64,000 nt of DNA, from positions 1 to 64,000 of the forward strand of contig JAHFCE010000014.1 in assembly GCA_023249675.1 (NCBI GenBank). Direction: 5' to 3'. A program made the translations under genes and the position numbers. Positions 24,748 to 34,241 of this stretch are shown here, piece after piece. The notes below the pieces were generated by a model. That model searched no databases and was not told the origin of the DNA. It saw only the letters and a list, made by a program, of their open reading frames with translations. How positions within the stretch are numbered: position 1 is the stretch's first letter; each line of letters begins with the position of its first letter. This DNA comes from Elusimicrobiota bacterium (lineage in GTDB: Bacteria > Elusimicrobiota > Elusimicrobia > UBA1565 > UBA9628).

Positions 24748-26216
24748 TAGGGCGCCGCGCCGCATTCCGGGCACTGCTCCGAGTCGAAGGCGAGCGCGCC
24801 ATCGCAGCGTGCGGCGGGCGACCCGGCGTGATGAAAGAACAGGGGGATCGCGGTGAAGCTGCGCTCCGGGTGGGCGACCGAGCAGGCGCCCGCGGCGTCG
24901 AAGGCGGCGAATAGGCCCTCCTTGCGCGAGAAATCCTTGGAGTTTTCCTTTCGCCAGCCGACGTGGAAATTCAGCGGCCGCCGGTCGCCGGGCGAGGTGA
25001 ATTCGCGCAGCAAGAAAACTTGGGTCGCGAACGCCGCCGCGATCGCGCAGCGGTAGACGAAGCGCTTGTCCGCGCGCGCAAGCCTCGGCAGGGCGGCCGA
25101 GAGCGCGAGGGCACTGAGCAGCGCGGGCAGAGAGTAGTATCGCAGGGAGCTTGTGTGACGGAAGAGAATGAACACCGCCGCGAAAGCCGCCGGCCACAAA
25201 AGCACGGTGCGTTCGTGGAAGTCCATACTTTTGTCGTGCCAGGCGCGGGTGCAGTTCCAGGCGAGCAGGCCGGCGAGGAAAAAGCCCCAGGCATAAAAAA
25301 GCGCATTCACAAGGCCGGGCAGTTGGTAGGAAAATAACCGTTCGAACACGACGGGCCCCGCGAAAATCTGGATAAGCGGAACGAGATGCCACACGATGAA
25401 GGCGCTGATCGTCAGGCCGAACAGAAGGAAGAGCGGGCGGCGGACGCGCGTAAAAATCTCTAATAGGACCTCGTCGGGTGCGCGCTGGACGGCCGCGGCG
25501 GCCAAAAGGGGCAGGAGAACGAGTGCTATGAGCAGCGGCGGGCGGTGCGCGACCCACAATTCGTCGGTGAGGGGGTACTTGATGAGCGCCAGAACGATGC
25601 CGGCTGCGAGCGCTGACGCCGCGTCGCGCAGGCGGGGCCGGGCCTGCTCCTCACTGAGCCACGCGGCGCGCGCGCCGAACAGCACGACAAGCGAGGCCGG
25701 AATCGAGAGATAGATGAAATGGTTCTGCACGCCGATCCAAGTGAGCGCCACAAGGGCGGCGGCACCCCGCGGCCGGGCCAGGGCGGCGAGCGTGCCGAGG
25801 ATCAGGATCGGATGCAGCGCGTACACTTCCCAGGCCAGGCGCGATTTCATCAGGAAGTAGGCCGACCCCGCGCAGAGAAGGGCCCAAGACGCGGCCGCCT
25901 TCGGCGAGATGCGCCGGCGCAGATGGAGCCAGAGGCCCGCGAGCGCTGCCATGTTGAGCAGGGCGCCCGGCAGCCGCAGGGTCTCGAGCGTTATGCCCCG
26001 CGCGGCGAAGACGGCCGACACGAGGCAGGCGTACAGCGGGCCCGTGTAATGGTTCATCTGGTGGGGCGTATAGACTCCGCGCTCGCGCAGGCGCTGGGCG
26101 AAAAGGCCGATCCAGGCCTCATCGAGCGACATCGCGGGAACAGCGCCCAGCCGTGCGAGCAGGCACGCCGCGCACAGCGCGAGGAGGAGGAGCGACGCCG
26201 CGTCGGTGCGCTTCAT
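24714..26216 (-). CDS. Integral membrane glycosyltransferase (ArnT/PMT-like, GT-C fold)
   Basis: The 500-residue protein has about eleven membrane helices. It carries the GT-C signature near the N-terminus, VPAMSLDEAWIGLFAQRL, in which Asp-Glu lies in the first extracytoplasmic loop. PHQMNHYTGPLYACLVSAVF follows, a layout shared with ArnT and dolichyl-phosphate-mannose transferases. It should transfer a sugar from a polyprenyl-phosphate donor outside the membrane. The acceptor is unknown. A soluble C-terminal tail contains C-P-E-C-G-A-A near the end. It is divergent from kbl. I chose the ATG at 26216 because a -10 box sits seven bases upstream. Confidence 0.75.
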   Translation of the reverse strand: MKRTDAASLLLLALCAACLLARLGAVPAMSLDEAWIGLFAQRLRERGVYTPHQMNHYTGPLYACLVSAVFAARGITLETLRLPGALLNMAALAGLWLHLRRRISPKAAASWALLCAGSAYFLMKSRLAWEVYALHPILILGTLAALARPRGAAALVALTWIGVQNHFIYLSIPASLVVLFGARAAWLSEEQARPRLRDAASALAAGIVLALIKYPLTDELWVAHRPPLLIALVLLPLLAAAAVQRAPDEVLLEIFTRVRRPLFLLFGLTISAFIVWHLVPLIQIFAGPVVFERLFSYQLPGLVNALFYAWGFFLAGLLAWNCTRAWHDKSMDFHERTVLLWPAAFAAVFILFRHTSSLRYYSLPALLSALALSAALPRLARADKRFVYRCAIAAAFATQVFLLREFTSPGDRRPLNFHVGWRKENSKDFSRKEGLFAAFDAAGACSVAHPERSFTAIPLFFHHAGSPAARCDGALAFDSEQCPECGAAPYYRWSVVPAAK

Positions 26217-26241
26217 GGGGGACATTCTATATAATCGCCGC
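26217..26241. promoter_or_regulatory. Back-to-back leaderless promoters, glycosyltransferase / kbl
   Basis: The 25 bases between start codons contain ATTCTATATAAT. On the plus strand TATAAT (26230-26235) ends six bases before the kbl ATG. On the minus strand TAGAAT (26229-26224) ends seven bases before the glycosyltransferase ATG. The two -10 hexamers touch, so both promoters cannot be occupied at once. Confidence 0.65.
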
Positions 26242-27453
26242 ATGATGATTGAGAACGACGGCTTGATGGATTTCCTCGACGCCGAGATCGCCCAGCTCAA
26301 GGCCGAGGGCCGCTTCGTGGCGTTGCGCGTCTTGACGGGCCACCAGGCGCCGGTTTCGATCGTGGACGGCAAGAGGGTCGTCAATCTGACCTCGAACAAC
26401 TACCTCGATCTCACGGGGCATCCCAAGCTGAAGGCCGCCGCGAAAGCCGCGATCGACACGCACGGCGTCGGGACCGCCGCCGTGCGCCCCATCATCGGCA
26501 CGCAGGACATTCACTTGGCTCTCGAGCGCAAGCTCGCCCAGTTCAAGGGCACCGAGGCAGCGCTCGTCTTCCAGTCCGGCTTCACCGTTAACGTCGCTTG
26601 TTGTCAAAGCCTGATGAGCGGCGCGAACGACTTGTTGATCTCCGATGAGCTTAACCACGCCTCCATCATCGACGGCGCGCGCCTGGCCAAGGCCGCGCGC
26701 CAGGTGTATGCGCACAAGGACATGAAGGCGCTCCGGGCGATCCTTGAGTCGCCGCAAGCTCGGGGCGCGCGGCGCAAGATGATCGTGACGGACGGTGTGT
26801 TCTCCATGGACGGCGATTTGGCGCCGCTTCCGGAGATCGTCGAGCTTGCCGAGTCCTATGGCGCGTTCGTCATGGTGGACGACGCGCACGCCTCCGGCGT
26901 CATGGGGGAGAATGGCCGCGGCACGCCGTCTCATTTCAAGGTCGCCGAGCGCGTGCAGGTCTCGATCGGGACGCTGTCGAAGGCGGTGGGCGCTGTCGGC
27001 GGCTACGTCGCGGGCCGCCGCCGTCTGATCGACTATCTCATCTCGACTGCGCGTCCCTTCACTTTTTCAAGCTCGCATCCGCCCTCAGTCATCGCGACCT
27101 GTTCCGCCGCCATCGACGTGATGCTTGAGGAGCCGGAGCGCATTCAGAAGTTATGGCAGAACGCGGTCCATTTCAAGGAGGGCCTCAAGAAGCTCGGCTT
27201 CAACACCGGCGCCTCGCAGACGCCGATCACGCCCGTGCTGATCGGCGACACAAAGAAAGCCCAGGAGTTCTCCGCCCGCCTCTTTGCGGAGGGCGTATTC
27301 GCGCTCGCGATCTGCTTTCCGATCGTGGCCCGCGGCAAGGACCGTCTGCGTACGATCGTGAGCTCCGGTCACACCGAAAAGGACCTCGATTTCGCTCTCG
27401 AGAAGTTCGGCAAGGTCGGACGAGAGCTCGGCCTGGTCCCGGGAGTGGTATAA
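26242..27453 (+). CDS. kbl: Glycine C-acetyltransferase (2-amino-3-ketobutyrate CoA ligase)
   Basis: This PLP enzyme cleaves 2-amino-3-ketobutyrate with CoA to glycine and acetyl-CoA, completing threonine breakdown started by Tdh. The 403-residue alpha-oxoamine synthase shows NLTSNNYLDLTGHPKL, GVGTAAVRPIIGTQDIHLALE, DELNHASIIDG, VMVDDAHASGVMGENGRGTP and the PLP lysine in GTLSKAVGAVGGYV. The same fold includes 8-amino-7-oxononanoate synthase. The R-P-I-I-G-T-Q segment and the nearby tdh favour Kbl. I chose ATG 26242 (a second ATG follows at once), six bases after TATAAT. Confidence 0.87.
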   Translation: MMIENDGLMDFLDAEIAQLKAEGRFVALRVLTGHQAPVSIVDGKRVVNLTSNNYLDLTGHPKLKAAAKAAIDTHGVGTAAVRPIIGTQDIHLALERKLAQFKGTEAALVFQSGFTVNVACCQSLMSGANDLLISDELNHASIIDGARLAKAARQVYAHKDMKALRAILESPQARGARRKMIVTDGVFSMDGDLAPLPEIVELAESYGAFVMVDDAHASGVMGENGRGTPSHFKVAERVQVSIGTLSKAVGAVGGYVAGRRRLIDYLISTARPFTFSSSHPPSVIATCSAAIDVMLEEPERIQKLWQNAVHFKEGLKKLGFNTGASQTPITPVLIGDTKKAQEFSARLFAEGVFALAICFPIVARGKDRLRTIVSSGHTEKDLDFALEKFGKVGRELGLVPGVV

Positions 27454-27464: not shown

Positions 27465-28412
27465 ATGCCGATTTCCCTGCTCAAGGTGGAAGATTCTCTG
27501 ACCCGGGTCCGCTCGGGGCTCGAGAGCCGCGCCCGGCGCATCGAAGGGCGCGTCGGCCAAGAATTGGCCGCCCACATCGGCCGGCCCGGCAAGATGCTGC
27601 GCTCGCGCTTTGCTTTGCTTCTGGCGGGCGCTTTGGGCGTGGACCAGGAGAAGGCCGAGGGTGTGTCCCGGGCCATGGAGCTCGTGCATAACGCGAGCCT
27701 GCTCCACGACGACTGCGTAGACGAGGCCGACCTGCGCCGCGGCCGCTCGACCCCCAACAAGATTTTCGGCACCACCGTCGGCCTCTTGCTGGGCGACCTT
27801 GCTTTCTCACAGGGCCTCGAAGAGGCCATCGACATTTCGCCCAACGCGCCCAAGCTTTTGGTGACCGCCGTGCGCGAGATGACGGTCGGCGAGCTCCAAG
27901 AAGAGTTTTTGAAGGGGTCTCTGGAAGTGACGGTCGACGCCTATATGGGCGTCGCGTCGAGAAAGACCGGCGCCCTCTTTGAATGGGGGGGCGCGGTCCT
28001 GTCCGAGCTCTCGCCCTTCCCGCATGAGCAGAGCGACCCACCGCGCCTGGCCTGCGCGGCCGGAATTCTGCTCCAAATCGTGGACGACATCCATGATTAC
28101 ACTTTGACGCAGCGCGTTTCCGGCAAGGACGAAGGCCAGGACCTGGCCAACCGCCGCCTGACCTTGCCGTGCATCTACGCCCTGCAGGATGCGGGCGCGC
28201 GCGAGACATTCCTCGCGTTGTGGAACGCGCCGAAGCCCGACGCGGCCAAGATCGCCGCCCTCCTGAAGGAACGGGGGCCTATTCAGACAACGCGCAGCCA
28301 CGGCCGCGAAGTCGTGGACTCGATGCTCGCGATGATCAAAAAGCTGCCGTGCAAGGCCGAGGCCGCCGAGCTCGGCTTCTTCGTTGAGCTCATGGCGAAG
28401 AGGGAGTTCTAG
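27465..28412 (+). CDS. Polyprenyl diphosphate synthase
   Basis: Trans-polyprenyl synthases condense isopentenyl diphosphate onto allylic diphosphates. The 315-residue protein has GKMLRSR (42-48, diphosphate binding) and the first aspartate motif DDCVD at 82-86 in HNASLLHDDCVDEADLRRG. The second motif is DDIHD at 207-211, followed by a KDEGQDLANRRLTLP segment. These are class I features of medium/long-chain enzymes such as octaprenyl or heptaprenyl synthases. Chain length is not predictable here. The gene heads an operon that also has a UbiA-type prenyltransferase, so its product may be that enzyme's donor. Confidence 0.88.
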   Translation: MPISLLKVEDSLTRVRSGLESRARRIEGRVGQELAAHIGRPGKMLRSRFALLLAGALGVDQEKAEGVSRAMELVHNASLLHDDCVDEADLRRGRSTPNKIFGTTVGLLLGDLAFSQGLEEAIDISPNAPKLLVTAVREMTVGELQEEFLKGSLEVTVDAYMGVASRKTGALFEWGGAVLSELSPFPHEQSDPPRLACAAGILLQIVDDIHDYTLTQRVSGKDEGQDLANRRLTLPCIYALQDAGARETFLALWNAPKPDAAKIAALLKERGPIQTTRSHGREVVDSMLAMIKKLPCKAEAAELGFFVELMAKREF

Positions 28413-28414
28413 AC

Positions 28415-28855
28415 GTGTCGTACGAAGCCCTGCTGCGCAAAGCGTGGAAAAGCGGGGACTTCGTCGTCTCGGAGACCGAAGCGGCCTCGGCCGATCCGGC
28501 GGATGAGGCGAGCCGGCGTAAAGTCCGGCGAGAAGTCGAAGAGATTGCGGCGCGCGAGTCTTGGGATGCGAATTCTTGTCTCGTTGCCCACAAAGAGGGG
28601 ATTATGAAACTTGCTCCATTCGTGAAGTTCCGGGAAGAGAAGTTCGGCGCGGTGCTTTTCGAGACGCGCTCCGAGAAGGTCTACACGTTGAGCCCCACGG
28701 GCGCGGCCGTCGTGCGCGAGGTCATCGCGGGCGCTCAGTCGTCGAACCTCGTCGCCAAGCTCAAGGAAAAGTTCGAGGATCCGACCGGCAAGATGGCGAC
28801 GGAGGCCGCGTCGTTTCTCGCCCAGCTGCGGGAAAAAGGCCTGATCGTCGAATAA
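28415..28855 (+). CDS. PqqD-like peptide chaperone/recognition protein
   Basis: PqqD/MftB-type proteins bind RiPP precursor peptides and present them to radical-SAM enzymes. The C-terminal 83 residues fit this family: APFVKFREEKFGAVLFET, VYTLSPTGAAVVREVI and a helical end. The annotated 146 residues start at GTG, two bases after the upstream stop, and include a 63-residue charged helical extension. An internal ATG at 28604 after AGAGGGG would give a protein of typical PqqD size, so the extension is uncertain. The gene is eight bases upstream of the first radical-SAM gene. Confidence 0.72.
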   Translation: MSYEALLRKAWKSGDFVVSETEAASADPADEASRRKVRREVEEIAARESWDANSCLVAHKEGIMKLAPFVKFREEKFGAVLFETRSEKVYTLSPTGAAVVREVIAGAQSSNLVAKLKEKFEDPTGKMATEAASFLAQLREKGLIVE

Positions 28856-28863
28856 AGGACGCC

Positions 28864-29844
28864 ATGACCACCGAGACCGCCGCCCACCCCGAGTCCCAGT
28901 CCACCTCCGACCTGGCCGCGCCGCTGTACGTGGCCTGGCAGATCACCAACGAGTGCAACCTCGCCTGCCTGCACTGCATCGAGGAAAGCGGCCCCGGGAA
29001 GGCGTTTAAGGACGAGCTGACGACCGAACAGGCCTACGGCATCATCGATCAGCTGGTGAAAAGCGAGGTTCCCTACGTTTCGTTCTCCGGCGGCGAGCCC
29101 ATGGTCCGGTCCGATTTCTTCGGCATGGTCGAGCGCATCACGACAGGCGGCGTCGGCCTCAAGATCGAGACCAACGGTCACTTCCTGACTCGGGAGAATT
29201 GCCGACGGCTCAAGGACTTCGGCGTGAAGGCGGTCCAGGTTTCCCTCGACGGCGCGACCCCCGCGTCGTTCAACAAGATGCGCGTGCACGGCCGCCTGGA
29301 GTCGGCGCTTGACGGCGTCAACAACCTGCGCGAAGCGCGGATTCCCATCGAGATCAATTTCGTGCCCGCCAAGTTCAACATCCAGGAGATCGGCGCGGCC
29401 GTGGATCTCGCGCATGAGATCGGCGCGTACTCGTTCTACACCGGCAAGCTGATGTTCACCGGCAACGCGGTCCGCACCTGGGCCATCACCGCCCCCGACG
29501 AGTCTGATTACCCGCAATTCTTCGATACGCTGCGCCTGAAGACCGAGCAATACAAGGGGCGGATGCGGGTCTACTTCCATGAGATGGGCCTGCTGGAAGA
29601 GCTTCGCTACCGCCTTGAAAATCCGGCGGCCCTGTTCATCATTCTTCCCAACGGCAAGGTGAAATTGATCAACGCCTTGCCTTTCACCTGCGGCGATCTC
29701 AGGACTGACACGCTCGGCCAAGTTTGGGCGCAGTTCCAGAACGCCTGGAAGAGTCCGCGTGTCGCGGCCTTCATCGACCGCCTGGCCGAGGACCCGGGCA
29801 TCGTTTCCCGCCTGCATCAGTGGGAAGAGGTCGGCGGACGATGA
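28864..29844 (+). CDS. Radical SAM protein 1, MftC/PqqE-like, degenerate SPASM
   Basis: This radical-SAM enzyme is expected to modify a peptide. The iron-sulfur motif CNLACLHC has Cys31, Cys35 and Cys38. SGGEP (74-78) binds the SAM amino group, and LKIETNGHFL and VQVSLDGA are further core strands. The C-terminal 70 residues follow the SPASM plan (ILPNGKVKLINALPFTCGDLRTDTLGQVW) but keep one cysteine, Cys275, so auxiliary clusters are probably absent. It has 326 residues. AAAGGAC precedes the ATG. It is closely paralogous to the other two radical-SAM genes of the operon and overlaps ubiA as ATGA. Confidence 0.85.
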   Translation: MTTETAAHPESQSTSDLAAPLYVAWQITNECNLACLHCIEESGPGKAFKDELTTEQAYGIIDQLVKSEVPYVSFSGGEPMVRSDFFGMVERITTGGVGLKIETNGHFLTRENCRRLKDFGVKAVQVSLDGATPASFNKMRVHGRLESALDGVNNLREARIPIEINFVPAKFNIQEIGAAVDLAHEIGAYSFYTGKLMFTGNAVRTWAITAPDESDYPQFFDTLRLKTEQYKGRMRVYFHEMGLLEELRYRLENPAALFIILPNGKVKLINALPFTCGDLRTDTLGQVWAQFQNAWKSPRVAAFIDRLAEDPGIVSRLHQWEEVGGR

Positions 29845-30758
29845 GCGACGTCTTCGCCGCCCCGCACGCGCCGGCCGAGCAGACCTTGGTCATGAAGGCG
29901 GCCTCGGTCGTGCGCTACCGATTCTTTTTGTACGCCGGTCTGCTCCCGTATTTTTTGGGAGCCGCCTGGGCGTACGGCGTGGAGAAAACCTTCAATCCCG
30001 GTGTATTTTCCCTGGGCCTTTTCGGCATTTTCCTTTCCGTCGTCGGCGTGGAGAGTTTCAACGAGTATTTCGACGCGAAGATGGGAACCGATCGCGTCTT
30101 CAATCCCGACGCGGAGGAATACATTCCCGAGTGGATGTTCTATGTCGGAATTGCCGCGTTTGCGCTGGCCGCGGGGATCGGCTTTCATCTGGCGCGGCAA
30201 GGCGGTTGGCCGATCATTCTGTACACGCTGCTCGGGGGCGCGGCCGCCGTTTGGTACGTCGGCCCGCCCATTCGTTGGGTGTATCGAGGATTGGGGGAAA
30301 CCGTCATCGGGTTGTCCTATGGCCCGTGGATGGTTCTGGGTTCGCTGCACCTTCACACGCAGCGCTTTTCGTGGGGCGCCTTGCTGGCGTCGTTGGTGCC
30401 CGGTTTATTGATCATGTCGTTGGCGACCGTGAATAATATTCCTGATTTTCATCAGGACCGATTGGTGGGAAAGAAAAATCTGGTGGTTCGTCTGGGACGG
30501 AAGAACGGAAGATATTTGTATCTCGGCCTTTCCGCGTTGGGACTGTTGATCATCCCGTTGGGCGTGCTCGCCGGGATATTCCCCACACTGACGGTCCTGG
30601 CCGCTTTGGCGGGCCTGCCGCTGTGGATCGTCAGCCTGCGCGCGGGTCGCGACACCTGGGACACTCCCCGGCTGTTTATGCCCGCCATCCGCGCGATTGT
30701 CCAGTGCTATGCCCTCGCGACCAGCGTGTTTGCGGTCTGCGTCGCCCTCGGCCGATGA
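29841..30758 (+). CDS. UbiA-family prenyltransferase
   Basis: UbiA enzymes attach polyprenyl chains to aromatic or quinone rings in the membrane. The 305-residue protein has about eight to nine helices and both aspartate motifs: NEYFDAKMGTD (74-84; Asn74, Asp78, Asp84) and DFHQD (202-206) with KKNLVVRLGRKNG after it, as in MenA-like members. No menaquinone or ubiquinone genes are adjacent. Instead it lies between two radical-SAM genes, with ATGA overlaps on both sides. This suggests that its acceptor is made by this operon, which is an inference. A role in ordinary quinone synthesis remains possible. Confidence 0.85.
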   Translation: MSDVFAAPHAPAEQTLVMKAASVVRYRFFLYAGLLPYFLGAAWAYGVEKTFNPGVFSLGLFGIFLSVVGVESFNEYFDAKMGTDRVFNPDAEEYIPEWMFYVGIAAFALAAGIGFHLARQGGWPIILYTLLGGAAAVWYVGPPIRWVYRGLGETVIGLSYGPWMVLGSLHLHTQRFSWGALLASLVPGLLIMSLATVNNIPDFHQDRLVGKKNLVVRLGRKNGRYLYLGLSALGLLIIPLGVLAGIFPTLTVLAALAGLPLWIVSLRAGRDTWDTPRLFMPAIRAIVQCYALATSVFAVCVALGR

Positions 30759-31714
30759 GAATTCAAGCCTTCGCCGCTCCGACCATGGTCACCTGGCAGT
30801 TGACCCGGGACTGCGATCTTGCCTGCCTGCATTGCTGCACCGACTCCGCGCCGGGCAAGGCGCTGCCGGGCGAGTTGTCGCGCGCGCAGGCGTTGAAGCT
30901 GTGCGCTGAGATCGCGGCGGCGGGCGTGCCCTACGCGATGATCGTTGGGGGAGAGCCGACGTTGGTTCCTCATTTCACGCAAGTCTGCAAGACGCTGTCG
31001 GACGGCGGCGTGCTGCTCAAGATCGAGACGAACGGACAGAACTTCGATGTGAACGCCCTCAAAGGCCTTGGGATCAGATCCGTCCAGATCTCCTTGGATG
31101 GGGCCTCGCAAGCCGTGTATGGACGGCAAAGAGTCAACGGCGTTCTGGAGAAAGCGGTCGCGGCGTGCCGTGCGACCGTTGCCGCGGGACTCCCGCTCGA
31201 GATCACGTTCGCCCCGACAAAACTGAATATCTTTGAGGCCGAGGCGGTGATCGATCTCGCGCTCTCGCTCGGCGCCTTCCGCTTCAACACGGGCCGGCTC
31301 ATGCGTCTGGGCACGGCCGCCAAGCTCTGGGACCGCCTCGAGCCGACGAAGTCTGAATACGCGGCGTTTTTACGCGTTCTGGCGCGTAAGGAACGAGAGC
31401 TCGCGGGCCGCCTGGAGCTGTGCTACAAGCCTTTTTCTCTGGAGGAGGAAATGGCGGATCGCGCCGGTCAGCCCTCCGGCACATTATTGGTGCTTCCCGA
31501 TGGGCGGGTCAAGGTCGCAGCGCCCTTGCCTTTTACCTGCGCCGATCTCACGTCGCAAACCATCCTCCAAGCTTGGGAGTCCTACAAGATCGCCTGGGCG
31601 GACCCGCGCGTGCGCGCCGGGCTTGAACGCCTTGCCGCCGAGCCGTCGGCGGCAGCACAGGCCAATCACTGGATCTCGCTGGACGCAGTCAACGCTCTGC
31701 CGGCCGTGGTCTGA
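30755..31714 (+). CDS. Radical SAM protein 2, MftC/PqqE-like, degenerate SPASM
   Basis: This is a second paralogue of 319 residues. The cluster motif is CDLACLHC (Cys20, Cys24, Cys27, with an extra Cys28). VGGEP (64-68) binds SAM, and LLKIETNGQ and VQISLDGAS match copy 1. The C-terminal region, LVLPDGRVKVAAPLPFTCADL, aligns with SPASM but has only Cys262. It starts at ATG 30755 overlapping the ubiA stop. It lies 19 bases before the small peptide gene, so it is a candidate for the enzyme acting on that peptide. Confidence 0.84.
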   Translation: MRIQAFAAPTMVTWQLTRDCDLACLHCCTDSAPGKALPGELSRAQALKLCAEIAAAGVPYAMIVGGEPTLVPHFTQVCKTLSDGGVLLKIETNGQNFDVNALKGLGIRSVQISLDGASQAVYGRQRVNGVLEKAVAACRATVAAGLPLEITFAPTKLNIFEAEAVIDLALSLGAFRFNTGRLMRLGTAAKLWDRLEPTKSEYAAFLRVLARKERELAGRLELCYKPFSLEEEMADRAGQPSGTLLVLPDGRVKVAAPLPFTCADLTSQTILQAWESYKIAWADPRVRAGLERLAAEPSAAAQANHWISLDAVNALPAVV

Positions 31715-31733
31715 CCGGCAAATAAGGAGACAC

Positions 31734-31853
31734 ATGAACGACCAGAAAACCGTGACGGATGCCAAGGCCGAGCCGAAGCTCGCTTGGGAGACGCCCTCTC
31801 TTGAGGAAGTTTCCGAGCGCGTGATGGCCCAGCCCTACATCCGCTTCACCTGA
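31734..31853 (+). CDS. Candidate RiPP precursor peptide, 39 residues
   Basis: A short gene with AAGGAGA (31724-31730) and an ATG encodes 39 residues. The N-terminal half is charged and lysine-rich. Then comes KLAWETPSLEEVSERVMAQ, with a W-E-x-P-x-L-E-E pattern often seen in RiPP leader regions. It ends in PYIRFT, with a lone tyrosine at residue 35. The stop overlaps the start of radical-SAM gene 3 (TGATG), so translation is coupled. PQQ and mycofactocin precursors are also short peptides whose tyrosine is modified. A precursor role here is inferred from size, position and motif. Confidence 0.65.
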   Translation: MNDQKTVTDAKAEPKLAWETPSLEEVSERVMAQPYIRFT

Positions 31854-32815
31854 TGGACCGGAGGGGGGCGTCCGTAGGCGACTACGGCGCCCCTCTCTTT
31901 CTTGCCTGGCAGTTGAGCAACCGCTGCACGGGCCGTTGCCTGCACTGCTGCGAGGAGTCGGGGCCGGACAAGGCCTGGCCCGATGAGATGAACCGCGAGC
32001 AGGCCTTGTCGCTCACGCGCCAAATCGTCGAGAACGGCATCGCCTACGTCGCCTTCGGCGGCGGCGAGCCGATGGGCTGTCCCTGGGTGTGGGATATATT
32101 TAAGACGCTGACCGAAGGTCATGTCGAGATCAAGATCGAGACCAACGGCCTCGATCTCGATGATGCGGCCTGCGACAAGCTGAAGGCTCTCAACGTCGCG
32201 TGTGTGCAGATCTCTATTGATGGGGCCACAGCCGCGGTGCACGAAAAAATTCGTCCGGGTTCGGGCTACGCGCCCGCGTGGGCGGCCATCGACCGTCTGG
32301 TCAAGCGCGGCCTAGAACCCGAGTTGGTGTTCATTCCCACCCGCATCAACGTGAATGATGCCGTCGCCGTCTACGAACAGGCCGCCAAGCGCGGCGTGCG
32401 TACCTTCGTGACCGGCCCGATGATGCGCCTGGGCCGCGCCGCGCACGCTTGGGAGTCCTTGGCCTGCACCGATGCGGACTGGTCCGAGGCCGTCATGAGT
32501 CTTAAGGCGGCCGCGGCCGCGCTCAAGGGTCCGCGCCTGGCCGTCTATCCTTGGGGCATCCAGCAGGAGATGGCCACCCGCGCCGAGAGCCCTCAATCCA
32601 TGGTCTTGGTGGTGCCCAATGGACGCGCCAAGCTCCTCAATGCCTTGCCCTTCGCGGTTGCGGACCTTAAAAAGGAAAGCCTGGCTTCAGCCTGGCCCAA
32701 GGTCGGCGCCGCCTGGCGCTCCAAGGAAGTCCAGGACTTCGTGCGTCGCGCCCAAACCGAGACCGATCTGCTCAAGCACGCCAACGAGTGCTGGGATCTG
32801 GCTATTGTAGGGTAG
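31853..32815 (+). CDS. Radical SAM protein 3, MftC/PqqE-like, SPASM cysteines absent
   Basis: This third paralogue has 320 residues. The cluster motif is CTGRCLHC (Cys25, Cys29, Cys32) and GGGEP (69-73) follows. EIKIETNGLDL and VQISIDGAT match copies 1 and 2, as does the stretch C-L-H-C-C-E-E-S-G-P-D-K after the cluster. The C-terminal region VVPNGRAKLLNALPFAVADL has lost even the last SPASM-position cysteine, so only the SAM cluster is expected. It starts at the peptide's stop codon. It is the last gene of the operon before a 70-base gap. Confidence 0.84.
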   Translation: MDRRGASVGDYGAPLFLAWQLSNRCTGRCLHCCEESGPDKAWPDEMNREQALSLTRQIVENGIAYVAFGGGEPMGCPWVWDIFKTLTEGHVEIKIETNGLDLDDAACDKLKALNVACVQISIDGATAAVHEKIRPGSGYAPAWAAIDRLVKRGLEPELVFIPTRINVNDAVAVYEQAAKRGVRTFVTGPMMRLGRAAHAWESLACTDADWSEAVMSLKAAAAALKGPRLAVYPWGIQQEMATRAESPQSMVLVVPNGRAKLLNALPFAVADLKKESLASAWPKVGAAWRSKEVQDFVRRAQTETDLLKHANECWDLAIVG

Positions 32816-32885
32816 GACCAAAGACTTTCCTTGGCTTGCCCGATGGGCCCATGCCTCCGGCGCCGCCGCCTGCCATACTATGGCC

Positions 32886-34241
32886 ATGGTGACCAAACAG
32901 ATCAAGCAGGCCGTGGCCGGGGCGCTCGTATGCGCCATGACACTCGGTATTCCGGGCTTCCCTTGTTATCAGGCGCTTGCGCAAATGTCGGTGGCGCGCG
33001 CCGGCGGGGCCGCGGCTGTTCCCGGCGGCGTCGGCGCCGCGGGAGCCGTCTCGATCCCAGTCTCCGGAGTCCAGCCGCTTGCTCCGAGCGGTCTCGTGCC
33101 CGGCATGGCGGCGCCGGTCTCTTTGTTTGCGCCGTCTCCGTCGGTCATCGTGCCTCAAGCGTCCAACGGCTTGGCGCCTGTGGGTCCGGCTGCCGCCGCG
33201 AAAATTCCCAGCGCGATGGCCAAGCCTTTGTCCGTGATCCCTTCTCGCTCGGTCCCCACGACGTGGAGCACGCTCCAGCGCATCGGCGGCTTGGCCGCCA
33301 AGGCGACGGTTGACGACGCGGCCTCCGCCGAAGCCGGCCGCGGCATCGGCGCGGCGTTCGACGGCAGCGCTTCGGCGGCCGACGACCTGTTCGCGGCTCC
33401 CGTCGCGGCGAAGCAGTCTTCTTGGAGCCTGCTCAAGGCGGGCACGTTGAGCGCGGCCGCCGCCGCGGTCGCGATGCCTCTTCCGGCGCTTGCCGCACCG
33501 GCGGCGCAGACCGTCTCGGCGGCGCCCTCTTTGCCGATGCCGATGGAGACCGGCTCGATCATAGTCCTCGGTCTTGCCGCGGTCGGTTTAGGCATTTTCC
33601 TCTACAATGTGAACCTGGCCGTGACGGGCTGGCGGGACATGCGGCGCGGCGAGCGCCGCCACAAAGCCTTCACCCACGCCTTATCAGTGCGGGACCGCCA
33701 CGCCGCGCGCTTGAAGCAGGAGACCGGCGCCGTGCACGTCGCCGCGTTGGAGACGTCTTTAAACCATTGGGAGCTGCTCGCCTACCACAACGACCCGGCG
33801 AAGCTTGCCGCGCAGAAAGCCATGCCGGCCATCGAGGGCCTTCCGGTGCGAGCGGAGCTCATCACCCCCGCCGCCATCAAGCGGTTTGTCATGGGCACCG
33901 ATCGGTGGGCCCAACCCGCGCCTTTCCGGCGTCAGGGCGCGCGGTTGAGGAGTCCTCTTGTTAGGGCATTGTTGATCGGCGCGGCGGCGGCTACGCCGCT
34001 GATGCTGCTCACCGCGGTCGCCACGGCGGCGCCGCTCGCCGCGGCCGTGCCCCTCGCGATGGTGGGCGGCGGGGCTGCCTTCTCGATGCTCTCATTTTTT
34101 ATCTTTTTCCTCATCTCGCACGGTGTCTTCGACCGCTCTTTGGCGGAGGCGCTTCTCATCGGCGTCATCGCCGGTTTCGGTCATCCCTGGATCGCCTTCT
34201 TCGTCGGCCTTCTCTTAACTCACGATCACACCGAAGAGTGA
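32886..34241 (+). CDS. Hypothetical exported/membrane protein with Ala/Pro-rich ectodomain
   Basis: I do not recognise this 451-residue protein. It has a signal peptide (KQIKQAVAGALVCAMTLGI then a cysteine), about 180 residues of Ala/Pro/Ser-rich sequence, and a transmembrane helix near 222-245 (SIIVLGLAAVGLGIFLYNV). A soluble helical domain and two or three C-terminal hydrophobic helices follow, ending in HDHTEE. I chose ATG 32886: a TG-C-CATACT box ends six bases before it. An ATG two codons upstream is also possible. It follows the radical-SAM operon and could be a partner or export component, but nothing in the sequence shows that. Confidence 0.55.
   Translation: MVTKQIKQAVAGALVCAMTLGIPGFPCYQALAQMSVARAGGAAAVPGGVGAAGAVSIPVSGVQPLAPSGLVPGMAAPVSLFAPSPSVIVPQASNGLAPVGPAAAAKIPSAMAKPLSVIPSRSVPTTWSTLQRIGGLAAKATVDDAASAEAGRGIGAAFDGSASAADDLFAAPVAAKQSSWSLLKAGTLSAAAAAVAMPLPALAAPAAQTVSAAPSLPMPMETGSIIVLGLAAVGLGIFLYNVNLAVTGWRDMRRGERRHKAFTHALSVRDRHAARLKQETGAVHVAALETSLNHWELLAYHNDPAKLAAQKAMPAIEGLPVRAELITPAAIKRFVMGTDRWAQPAPFRRQGARLRSPLVRALLIGAAAATPLMLLTAVATAAPLAAAVPLAMVGGGAAFSMLSFFIFFLISHGVFDRSLAEALLIGVIAGFGHPWIAFFVGLLLTHDHTEE

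Follow-up and report, generated by a model that had tools for sequence, protein, structure and literature searches.

A seven-gene operon encoding a polyprenyl synthase, a PqqD-like protein, three radical-SAM enzymes, a MenA-like UbiA prenyltransferase and a 39-aa peptide was identified in a genome of Elusimicrobiota, and its core was found to be conserved in strict order in Elusimicrobiota and in scattered Pseudomonadota. That these genes constitute a single pathway is well supported. The most plausible interpretation is that of a RiPP-type pathway producing a polyprenylated, probably tyrosine-derived membrane redox cofactor, likely the respiratory quinone of these Elusimicrobiota, although the product and the chemistry are inferred, and we would assign to this interpretation a probability of about 0.5. 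No described pathway with this gene set was found.

Organization of the operon

The operon lies in the window analyzed here, i.e. a stretch of 64,000 nucleotides (contig JAHFCE010000014.1, positions 1 to 64,000, assembly GCA_023249675.1). All seven genes are present on the + strand, separated by gaps of 2, 8, -4, -4, 19 and -1 bases, exactly as given in the first-pass annotation:

27465..28412 (+), polyprenyl diphosphate synthase (PPS), predicted donor of the prenyl tail
28415..28855 (+), PqqD-like peptide-recognition protein (RRE), GTG start
28864..29844 (+), radical-SAM enzyme rS1
29841..30758 (+), UbiA-family membrane prenyltransferase, MenA-like
30755..31714 (+), radical-SAM enzyme rS2
31734..31853 (+), 39-aa precursor peptide, MNDQKTVTDAKAEPKLAWETPSLEEVSERVMAQPYIRFT
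31853..32815 (+), radical-SAM enzyme rS3

Pfam searches assigned the products to polyprenyl_synt (PF00348, 2e-40), PqqD (PF05402, 4e-10; 40.3 bits against a cut-off of 23.4), Radical_SAM (PF04055, 8e-23, 2e-15 and 8e-22 for rS1, rS2 and rS3, respectively; over cut-off in all three) and UbiA (PF01040, 2e-22). The three radical-SAM paralogues keep the CxxxCxxC motif (CNLACLHC, CDLACLHC, CTGRCLHC), which is conserved in orthologues, and in rS1 both CxxxCxxC and GGEP are invariant. By motif, however, none of them is a SPASM enzyme, as only one nearly invariant C-terminal Cys remains in rS1 (C276) and in rS2 (C262), and none in rS3. A model of rS1 (pLDDT 91.7) was closest, among solved structures, to SkfB and PqqE. 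The predicted fold of the PqqD-like protein was closest to that of lasso-peptide B1 bound to its leader (TbiB1) and to PqqD; the Elusimicrobiota copies carry an extra N-terminal helical region of about 60 residues, while a short form of about 83 residues occurs in distant loci.

The Asp residues of the UbiA motifs (NEYFDAKMGTD and NNIPDFHQD) and of the polyprenyl synthase motifs (DDCVD and DDIHD) are conserved in relatives, those of UbiA in 38 loci. The NCBIfam models nearest to the synthase are mostly medium/long-chain synthases, and the Ala at position -5 before its first Asp motif is invariant. The best NCBIfam models for the UbiA protein are those of MenA, all below cut-off (TIGR00751, 65.5 bits against 102; PRK06080.1-3, 106.5 against 264), and in a phylogenetic tree the operon UbiAs lie on the MenA side of the family but form their own group apart from the MenA references.

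The peptide consists of a variable leader, a W-x-x-P-x-[LMI] recognition-like motif and the C-terminal core AQPYIRFT. Its gene has its own GGAG a few bases upstream of the ATG, and a similar AGGAG-type site stands before it in most relatives.

Conservation and distribution of the cassette

The cassette PqqD-rS1-UbiA-rS2-peptide-rS3 is complete and in order in 32 of 38 loci found with rS1, the other six being cut by contig ends. The peptide was found between rS2 and rS3 in every locus spanning that interval, and in 38 of 295 Elusimicrobiota genomes. Its last 8 residues are identical in 41 of 41 loci while being encoded by 24 different DNA sequences, which indicates purifying selection on the core and fits a cofactor precursor better than a bacteriocin. 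Such conservation of order across two phyla and of the core is far beyond chance. The polyprenyl synthase gene is present in the intact Elusimicrobiota loci with one exception, and absent from the nine Pseudomonadota loci. In the trees of rS1, rS2 and rS3 the Pseudomonadota copies form, in each case, one clade nested within Elusimicrobiota, indicating apparent transfer of the cassette as one unit. One of the hosts is a complete Betaproteobacteria genome (CP019169.1), whereas of 299 genomes examined for a wider distribution in Acetobacterales only the seed genome carried the core. Two distant genomes carry a minimal locus of four genes, namely peptide, PqqD, one radical-SAM enzyme (rS1) and UbiA. 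Plasmid-borne homologues were not found beyond mycofactocin-type and generic radical-SAM proteins. In the Pseudomonadota loci no protease is linked to the cassette, and no methyltransferase, hydroxylase, transporter, immunity gene or partner dehydrogenase was found to recur beside it.

Quinone-related genes in the host genomes

The genome from which the window derives (98.6% complete) encodes cytochrome b, a Rieske protein and two heme-copper oxidases, but neither MenD nor MqnA/D, and its two other UbiA proteins are heme O synthases (CtaB) over cut-off. The operon UbiA is the only candidate quinone prenyltransferase of this genome. MenD was found in 0 of 295 Elusimicrobiota genomes and MqnA/D in none of the peptide-bearing ones, while controls detected both families. 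Across these 295 genomes the peptide was associated with cytochrome b (22/39 against 20/256, Fisher p = 9e-12) and showed no overlap with strong MqnA/D hits; among 42 cytochrome b genomes, 22 had the peptide, 9 had Mqn and none had both (p = 4e-4). It should be noted that these genomes are phylogenetically non-independent.

Some observations do not fit this picture easily. Thirty-nine Elusimicrobiota genomes with cytochrome b or CydA have neither this locus nor strong MqnA/D, so absence of the known pathways alone does not prove replacement; a search for a divergent version of the locus next to cydA in a set of CydA-bearing genomes revealed nothing in five loci. Ten operon-bearing genomes lack both cytochrome b and a strong CydA hit, and one genome with the minimal locus also has a second MenA-like UbiA. 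Moreover, all nine Pseudomonadota hosts searched have further UbiA proteins, including ones scoring far higher than the operon copy and taken as 4-hydroxybenzoate and CtaB types, so there the product is not the only quinone.

Discussion

The first-pass annotation inferred one pathway leading to a peptide-derived, prenylated product, unlike PQQ or mycofactocin, and our results support this inference. It would have been undermined by a lack of conservation of the neighborhood, or by UbiA and polyprenyl synthase clustering with ordinary menaquinone enzymes whose partner genes lie elsewhere in the genome; both possibilities were examined and neither was borne out. That the peptide is the scaffold, and that the product is prenylated, remain inferences. 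What we add is a likely role in respiration.

In the proposed mechanism, the PqqD-like protein binds the peptide through its W-x-x-P-x-L segment and presents it to three PqqE/SkfB-like radical-SAM enzymes, which modify the C-terminal core, most plausibly at the single Tyr. A hydroxylated aromatic head group would then be released, or exposed, and the MenA-like UbiA would attach to it a polyprenyl chain made by the adjacent polyprenyl synthase, giving a membrane-soluble redox cofactor, i.e. a ribosomally derived lipoquinone. In operon-bearing Elusimicrobiota it would serve as the respiratory quinone feeding the cytochrome b/Rieske complex or cytochrome bd, and in the few Pseudomonadota hosts it would be an additional quinone. 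The Tyr scaffold, the release step, prenylation of that scaffold and the quinone function are all inferred. More tentatively still, this route may replace the chorismate-based Men and futalosine pathways in these Elusimicrobiota.

Among the closest known systems is the PQQ pathway, which shares a short ribosomal precursor, a PqqD-family recognition protein and a radical-SAM enzyme of the PqqE fold. The peptide aligns without gaps with PqqA from its Trp to the C-terminus, with W, P and Tyr in the same register; this similarity is only suggestive (from 0 to about 14% of shuffles score as high depending on the pair). The position of the Glu that is cross-linked in PqqA (Glu16/Tyr20, M. extorquens numbering; PMC10906245) is occupied by Met (one Thr) in all aligned peptides, scores to the PqqE model are far too low (rS1 84.6, rS2 63.7 and rS3 39.2 bits against a cut-off of 381), the three radical-SAM enzymes have no SPASM cysteines, PqqB/C/F are not found beside the locus, and a membrane prenyltransferase and a prenyl synthase are added. 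The mycofactocin pathway (MftA-MftF; PMC3023750) has in common an invariant peptide C-terminus, an RRE-type protein (MftB), a radical-SAM maturase (MftC, the best or second-best NCBIfam match of each paralogue) and the logic of a redox cofactor, but the scores are far below cut-offs (MftC 130, 98 and 101 bits against 265; MftB 23.5 against 33), the core peptide is different and a prenyltransferase is present. The SynChlorMet cassette (ScmD, ScmE, ScmF) likewise combines multiple radical-SAM enzymes with a PqqD-related protein, yet its matches are far below cut-offs (ScmE 83 of 400 bits, ScmD 17 of 100). With the menaquinone pathways the operon shares a UbiA protein of MenA type with both Asp motifs, paired with a polyprenyl synthase, but not MenD or MqnA/D in the operon-bearing Elusimicrobiota genomes. 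Methyl-plastoquinone is an example of the new quinone types expected in lineages lacking known pathways (PMC13386864), although it was not described there as made from a ribosomal peptide. An anti-phage (viperin) function was not supported, as only weak generic radical-SAM similarity was detected.

It is possible, though we consider it less likely, that the prenylated cofactor derived from the peptide serves particular membrane dehydrogenases, as a lipid-anchored analogue of PQQ or mycofactocin, rather than the general respiratory quinone pool; mycofactocin is re-oxidised through respiration (PMC11778925). The conserved cassette and core are also compatible with this view, and the additional UbiA proteins of the Pseudomonadota hosts, as well as the operon-bearing genomes lacking cytochrome b and a strong CydA hit, would speak for it. 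On the other hand, no partner dehydrogenase recurs near the Pseudomonadota loci, and the quinol enzymes of the window's own genome would be left without any candidate quinone prenyltransferase.

An unlikely alternative is a prenylated RiPP natural product (signal, lipopeptide or antibiotic), in which UbiA prenylates the modified peptide itself. A precursor, an RRE-type protein and radical-SAM maturases are typical of RiPP loci, and prenylated RiPPs, such as ComX and cyanobactins, appear to provide a precedent. However, the core is invariant across two phyla, no transporter or immunity gene recurs near the Pseudomonadota loci, the distribution follows cytochrome b, and RiPP prenyltransferases known so far do not seem to be UbiA proteins.

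The possibility that UbiA and PPS are ordinary menaquinone genes, which happen to sit beside an unrelated PQQ-like RiPP locus, could be raised on the basis of the MenA-like scores and tree position of UbiA, but it is already contradicted by the absence of MenD and MqnA/D from the peptide-bearing Elusimicrobiota genomes, by the separation of the operon UbiAs from MenA references, and by the fact that UbiA lies inside the cassette, between rS1 and rS2, wherever it is intact, was apparently transferred with it and is retained in the minimal locus. Modification of a tetrapyrrole, with the peptide as a scaffold or regulator, is very unlikely, since the similarity of rS1 to AhbD and NirJ and of UbiA to ChlG/BchG is far below cut-off, the nearest solved structures are RiPP maturases, and neither the PqqD-like protein nor the invariant peptide would be explained.

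The common respiratory quinones appear to obtain their ring from chorismate or tyrosine metabolism, while the ribosomally derived redox cofactors described so far, PQQ and mycofactocin, are apparently water-soluble. A compact cassette joining an invariant peptide, a RiPP recognition protein, radical-SAM enzymes and a MenA-type prenyltransferase would bridge these two worlds. A 2026 survey of 26,264 bacterial genomes noted many lineages without any known quinone pathway, and suggested that further quinones await discovery (PMC13386864). The pathway proposed here would explain how a lineage with quinol enzymes but no Men or Mqn markers respires.

Structure of the operon

The operon is exactly as the first-pass annotation had described it, with seven + strand genes separated by gaps of 2, 8, -4, -4, 19 and -1 bases. 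It lies in a 2.6-Mb, 98.6% complete genome whose named relatives are Elusimicrobiota. The features of this region are as follows:
26206-27453, Kbl/BioF-type acyltransferase gene, 11 bases upstream of the operon
27465-32815, + strand, the seven-gene operon
32880-34241, gene for a 453-aa protein with a signal-like N-terminus, directly downstream
Pfam assigns polyprenyl synthetase, PqqD, Radical_SAM (three times, proteins rS1, rS2 and rS3) and UbiA, all over cut-off, while the 39-aa peptide matches nothing in Pfam or NCBIfam. None of the seven proteins passes an NCBIfam cut-off, so NCBI has no named family for them as of June 2026. The acyltransferase gene is directly adjacent to the operon only in some close relatives, so it is probably not part of the pathway. 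The 453-aa protein has no Pfam or NCBIfam match and was not found beside the operon in other loci.

Conservation of the cassette

A scan of one genome per species with rS1 gave 38 loci. In 32 of them PqqD-rS1-UbiA-rS2-peptide-rS3 stand in the same order and strand, and the other six are broken by contig ends. The polyprenyl synthase gene leads the intact Elusimicrobiota loci of that scan, but is absent from the nine Pseudomonadota loci (Acidocella, Acidiphilium, Burkholderiales, Azospirillaceae, the complete genome CP019169.1 and others) and from one further locus, L102. No other gene recurs beside the Pseudomonadota cassettes. In locus L068 (11002-13568), a gene for a 500-aa protein that looks like a Fic-domain protein (HPFADGNGRVAR motif) sits between a short rS3 N-terminal fragment and rS3. 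The contig of locus L060 is labelled Bordetella parapertussis although it is a metagenome bin, and this name should not be taken as host identity.

In phylogenetic trees each radical-SAM paralogue is one clade, and in each of them the Pseudomonadota sequences form one clade nested inside Elusimicrobiota. The simplest history is duplication to three paralogues in Elusimicrobiota and transfer of the whole cassette. In Acetobacterales only the seed genome of 299 has the core, so the transfer is sporadic there.

The short peptide

Between rS2 and rS3 every intact locus encodes a short peptide (39 aa here, roughly 33-52 aa elsewhere) with a variable N-terminus, a W-x-x-P-x-[LMI]-x-[ED]-V-[ST] segment (one locus has Leu for Trp) and the invariant end AQPYIRFT-stop. 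The last eight residues are identical in 41 of 41 loci although 24 different DNA sequences encode them, indicating that selection acts on the peptide. Although these 41 loci were collected by a pattern for that core, the peptides recognized in the survey of the loci themselves were found independently of it. A degenerate pattern for the core hits 38 of 295 Elusimicrobiota genomes, and its reversed control none. From its Trp to its end the peptide of the window is 22 residues, as long as Klebsiella PqqA from its Trp, and aligns with it without gaps, with Trp, Pro and Tyr-Ile in register. However, the Glu that PqqE cross-links to Tyr (PMC10906245) is replaced by Met. Since between 0 of 2000 and about 14% of shuffled sequences scored as high, depending on the pair, common descent is only suggested.

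Two distant Elusimicrobiota genomes, G148 and G238, carry a compact locus of four genes (L091, 8287-10869; L092, 7722-10188). These encode a peptide (...W[VI]KPELTDVSGRVMAQPYIRFT), whose leader holds a CGC motif absent from the other peptides seen, an 83-aa PqqD, one radical-SAM protein (41-43% to rS1, in the rS1 clade) and UbiA (41%). This points to peptide, RRE, rS1 and UbiA as the core, with rS2, rS3 and the prenyl synthase as additions or as unlinked genes.

Predicted enzymes

The rS1 protein was modelled at pLDDT 91.7, and the nearest solved structures are the RiPP maturase SkfB and PqqE, which are also the best sequence matches in the PDB. The PqqD-like protein matches lasso B1 bound to leader peptide, and PqqD. 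Lasso leaders appear to be recognized through a Y-x-x-P-x-L segment, which resembles the W-x-x-P-x-L found here, so binding of this segment by the PqqD-like protein is a reasonable inference. The radical-SAM C-termini lack the SPASM cysteines except one (C276 in rS1, C262 in rS2). The UbiA protein keeps both Asp motifs in 38 loci and scores best with MenA models, although below cut-off. In a tree it lies on the MenA side, away from E. coli UbiA and from the CtaB proteins of the genome, as a group apart from the MenA references, though this tree has long branches and few references. The polyprenyl synthase has an invariant Ala five residues before its first Asp motif.

Link to respiration

The genome encodes a Rieske protein with a split cytochrome b, a second cytochrome b and two heme-copper oxidases. 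It has three UbiA homologues, namely that of the operon and two beside the oxidase genes, which exceed the heme O synthase cut-off. MenD is absent from all 295 Elusimicrobiota genomes, and MqnA/D occurs in 23, of which 20 strongly, none of them peptide-bearing; both searches detect their targets in control genomes. Weak single matches to the MqnA/D family in three cytochrome b-bearing genomes of one family (G104, G193 and G206, family f8) may represent a divergent enzyme or an unrelated binding protein.

When one genome with rS3 at a contig edge (G024, locus L099) was counted as positive, 22 of 39 cassette genomes had cytochrome b against 20 of 256 others (p = 9e-12). Among the 42 cytochrome b genomes, 22 have the cassette, 9 have Mqn, none both and 11 neither (p = 4e-4). 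These p-values ignore phylogeny and are only indicative. With cytochrome bd added, 29 of 39 cassette genomes have a quinol enzyme. About 27 Elusimicrobiota genomes of family f5 (such as G071, G128 and G247), have a strong cytochrome bd subunit I but no MenD, MqnA/D or this peptide core, and their quinone source is unexplained.

Discussion

It is highly likely that the seven genes form one pathway. Full-text searches returned no paper that joins radical SAM enzymes and UbiA with a precursor peptide or with PqqD, although prior mention in work on Elusimicrobia metabolism cannot be excluded; the only paper retrieved when radical SAM, PqqD, prenyltransferase and SPASM were combined concerns thioamidated RiPPs.

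The release step of the proposed pathway has no linked protease. Proteolysis appears to be needed also in PQQ and mycofactocin synthesis, and the Tyr-cleaving radical-SAM enzymes ThiH and HydG suggest that fragmentation without a protease is conceivable.

Three readings share the cassette: a bulk lipoquinone, a specialised prenylated cofactor and a prenylated peptide natural product. Several observations call for caution in choosing among them. The Pseudomonadota hosts have additional, higher-scoring UbiA proteins, taken to include the 4-hydroxybenzoate type. Moreover, 39 Elusimicrobiota with cytochrome b or CydA have neither pathway, so other unknown routes or scavenging exist, and ten cassette genomes lack both enzymes. 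G148, one of the genomes with the compact locus, has a second polyprenyl synthase plus MenA-like UbiA pair (L144, 6377-8187, contig 137), not linked to a peptide or radical-SAM gene in the stretch read, and is without MqnA/D or MenD. Nevertheless, the invariant core, the lack of a recurrent exporter, the MenA-like prenyltransferase and the co-distribution with quinol enzymes favour the first reading, a bulk lipoquinone, to which we assign a probability of about 0.5. A 2026 survey reports many lineages without known quinone pathways and expects new quinones (PMC13386864).
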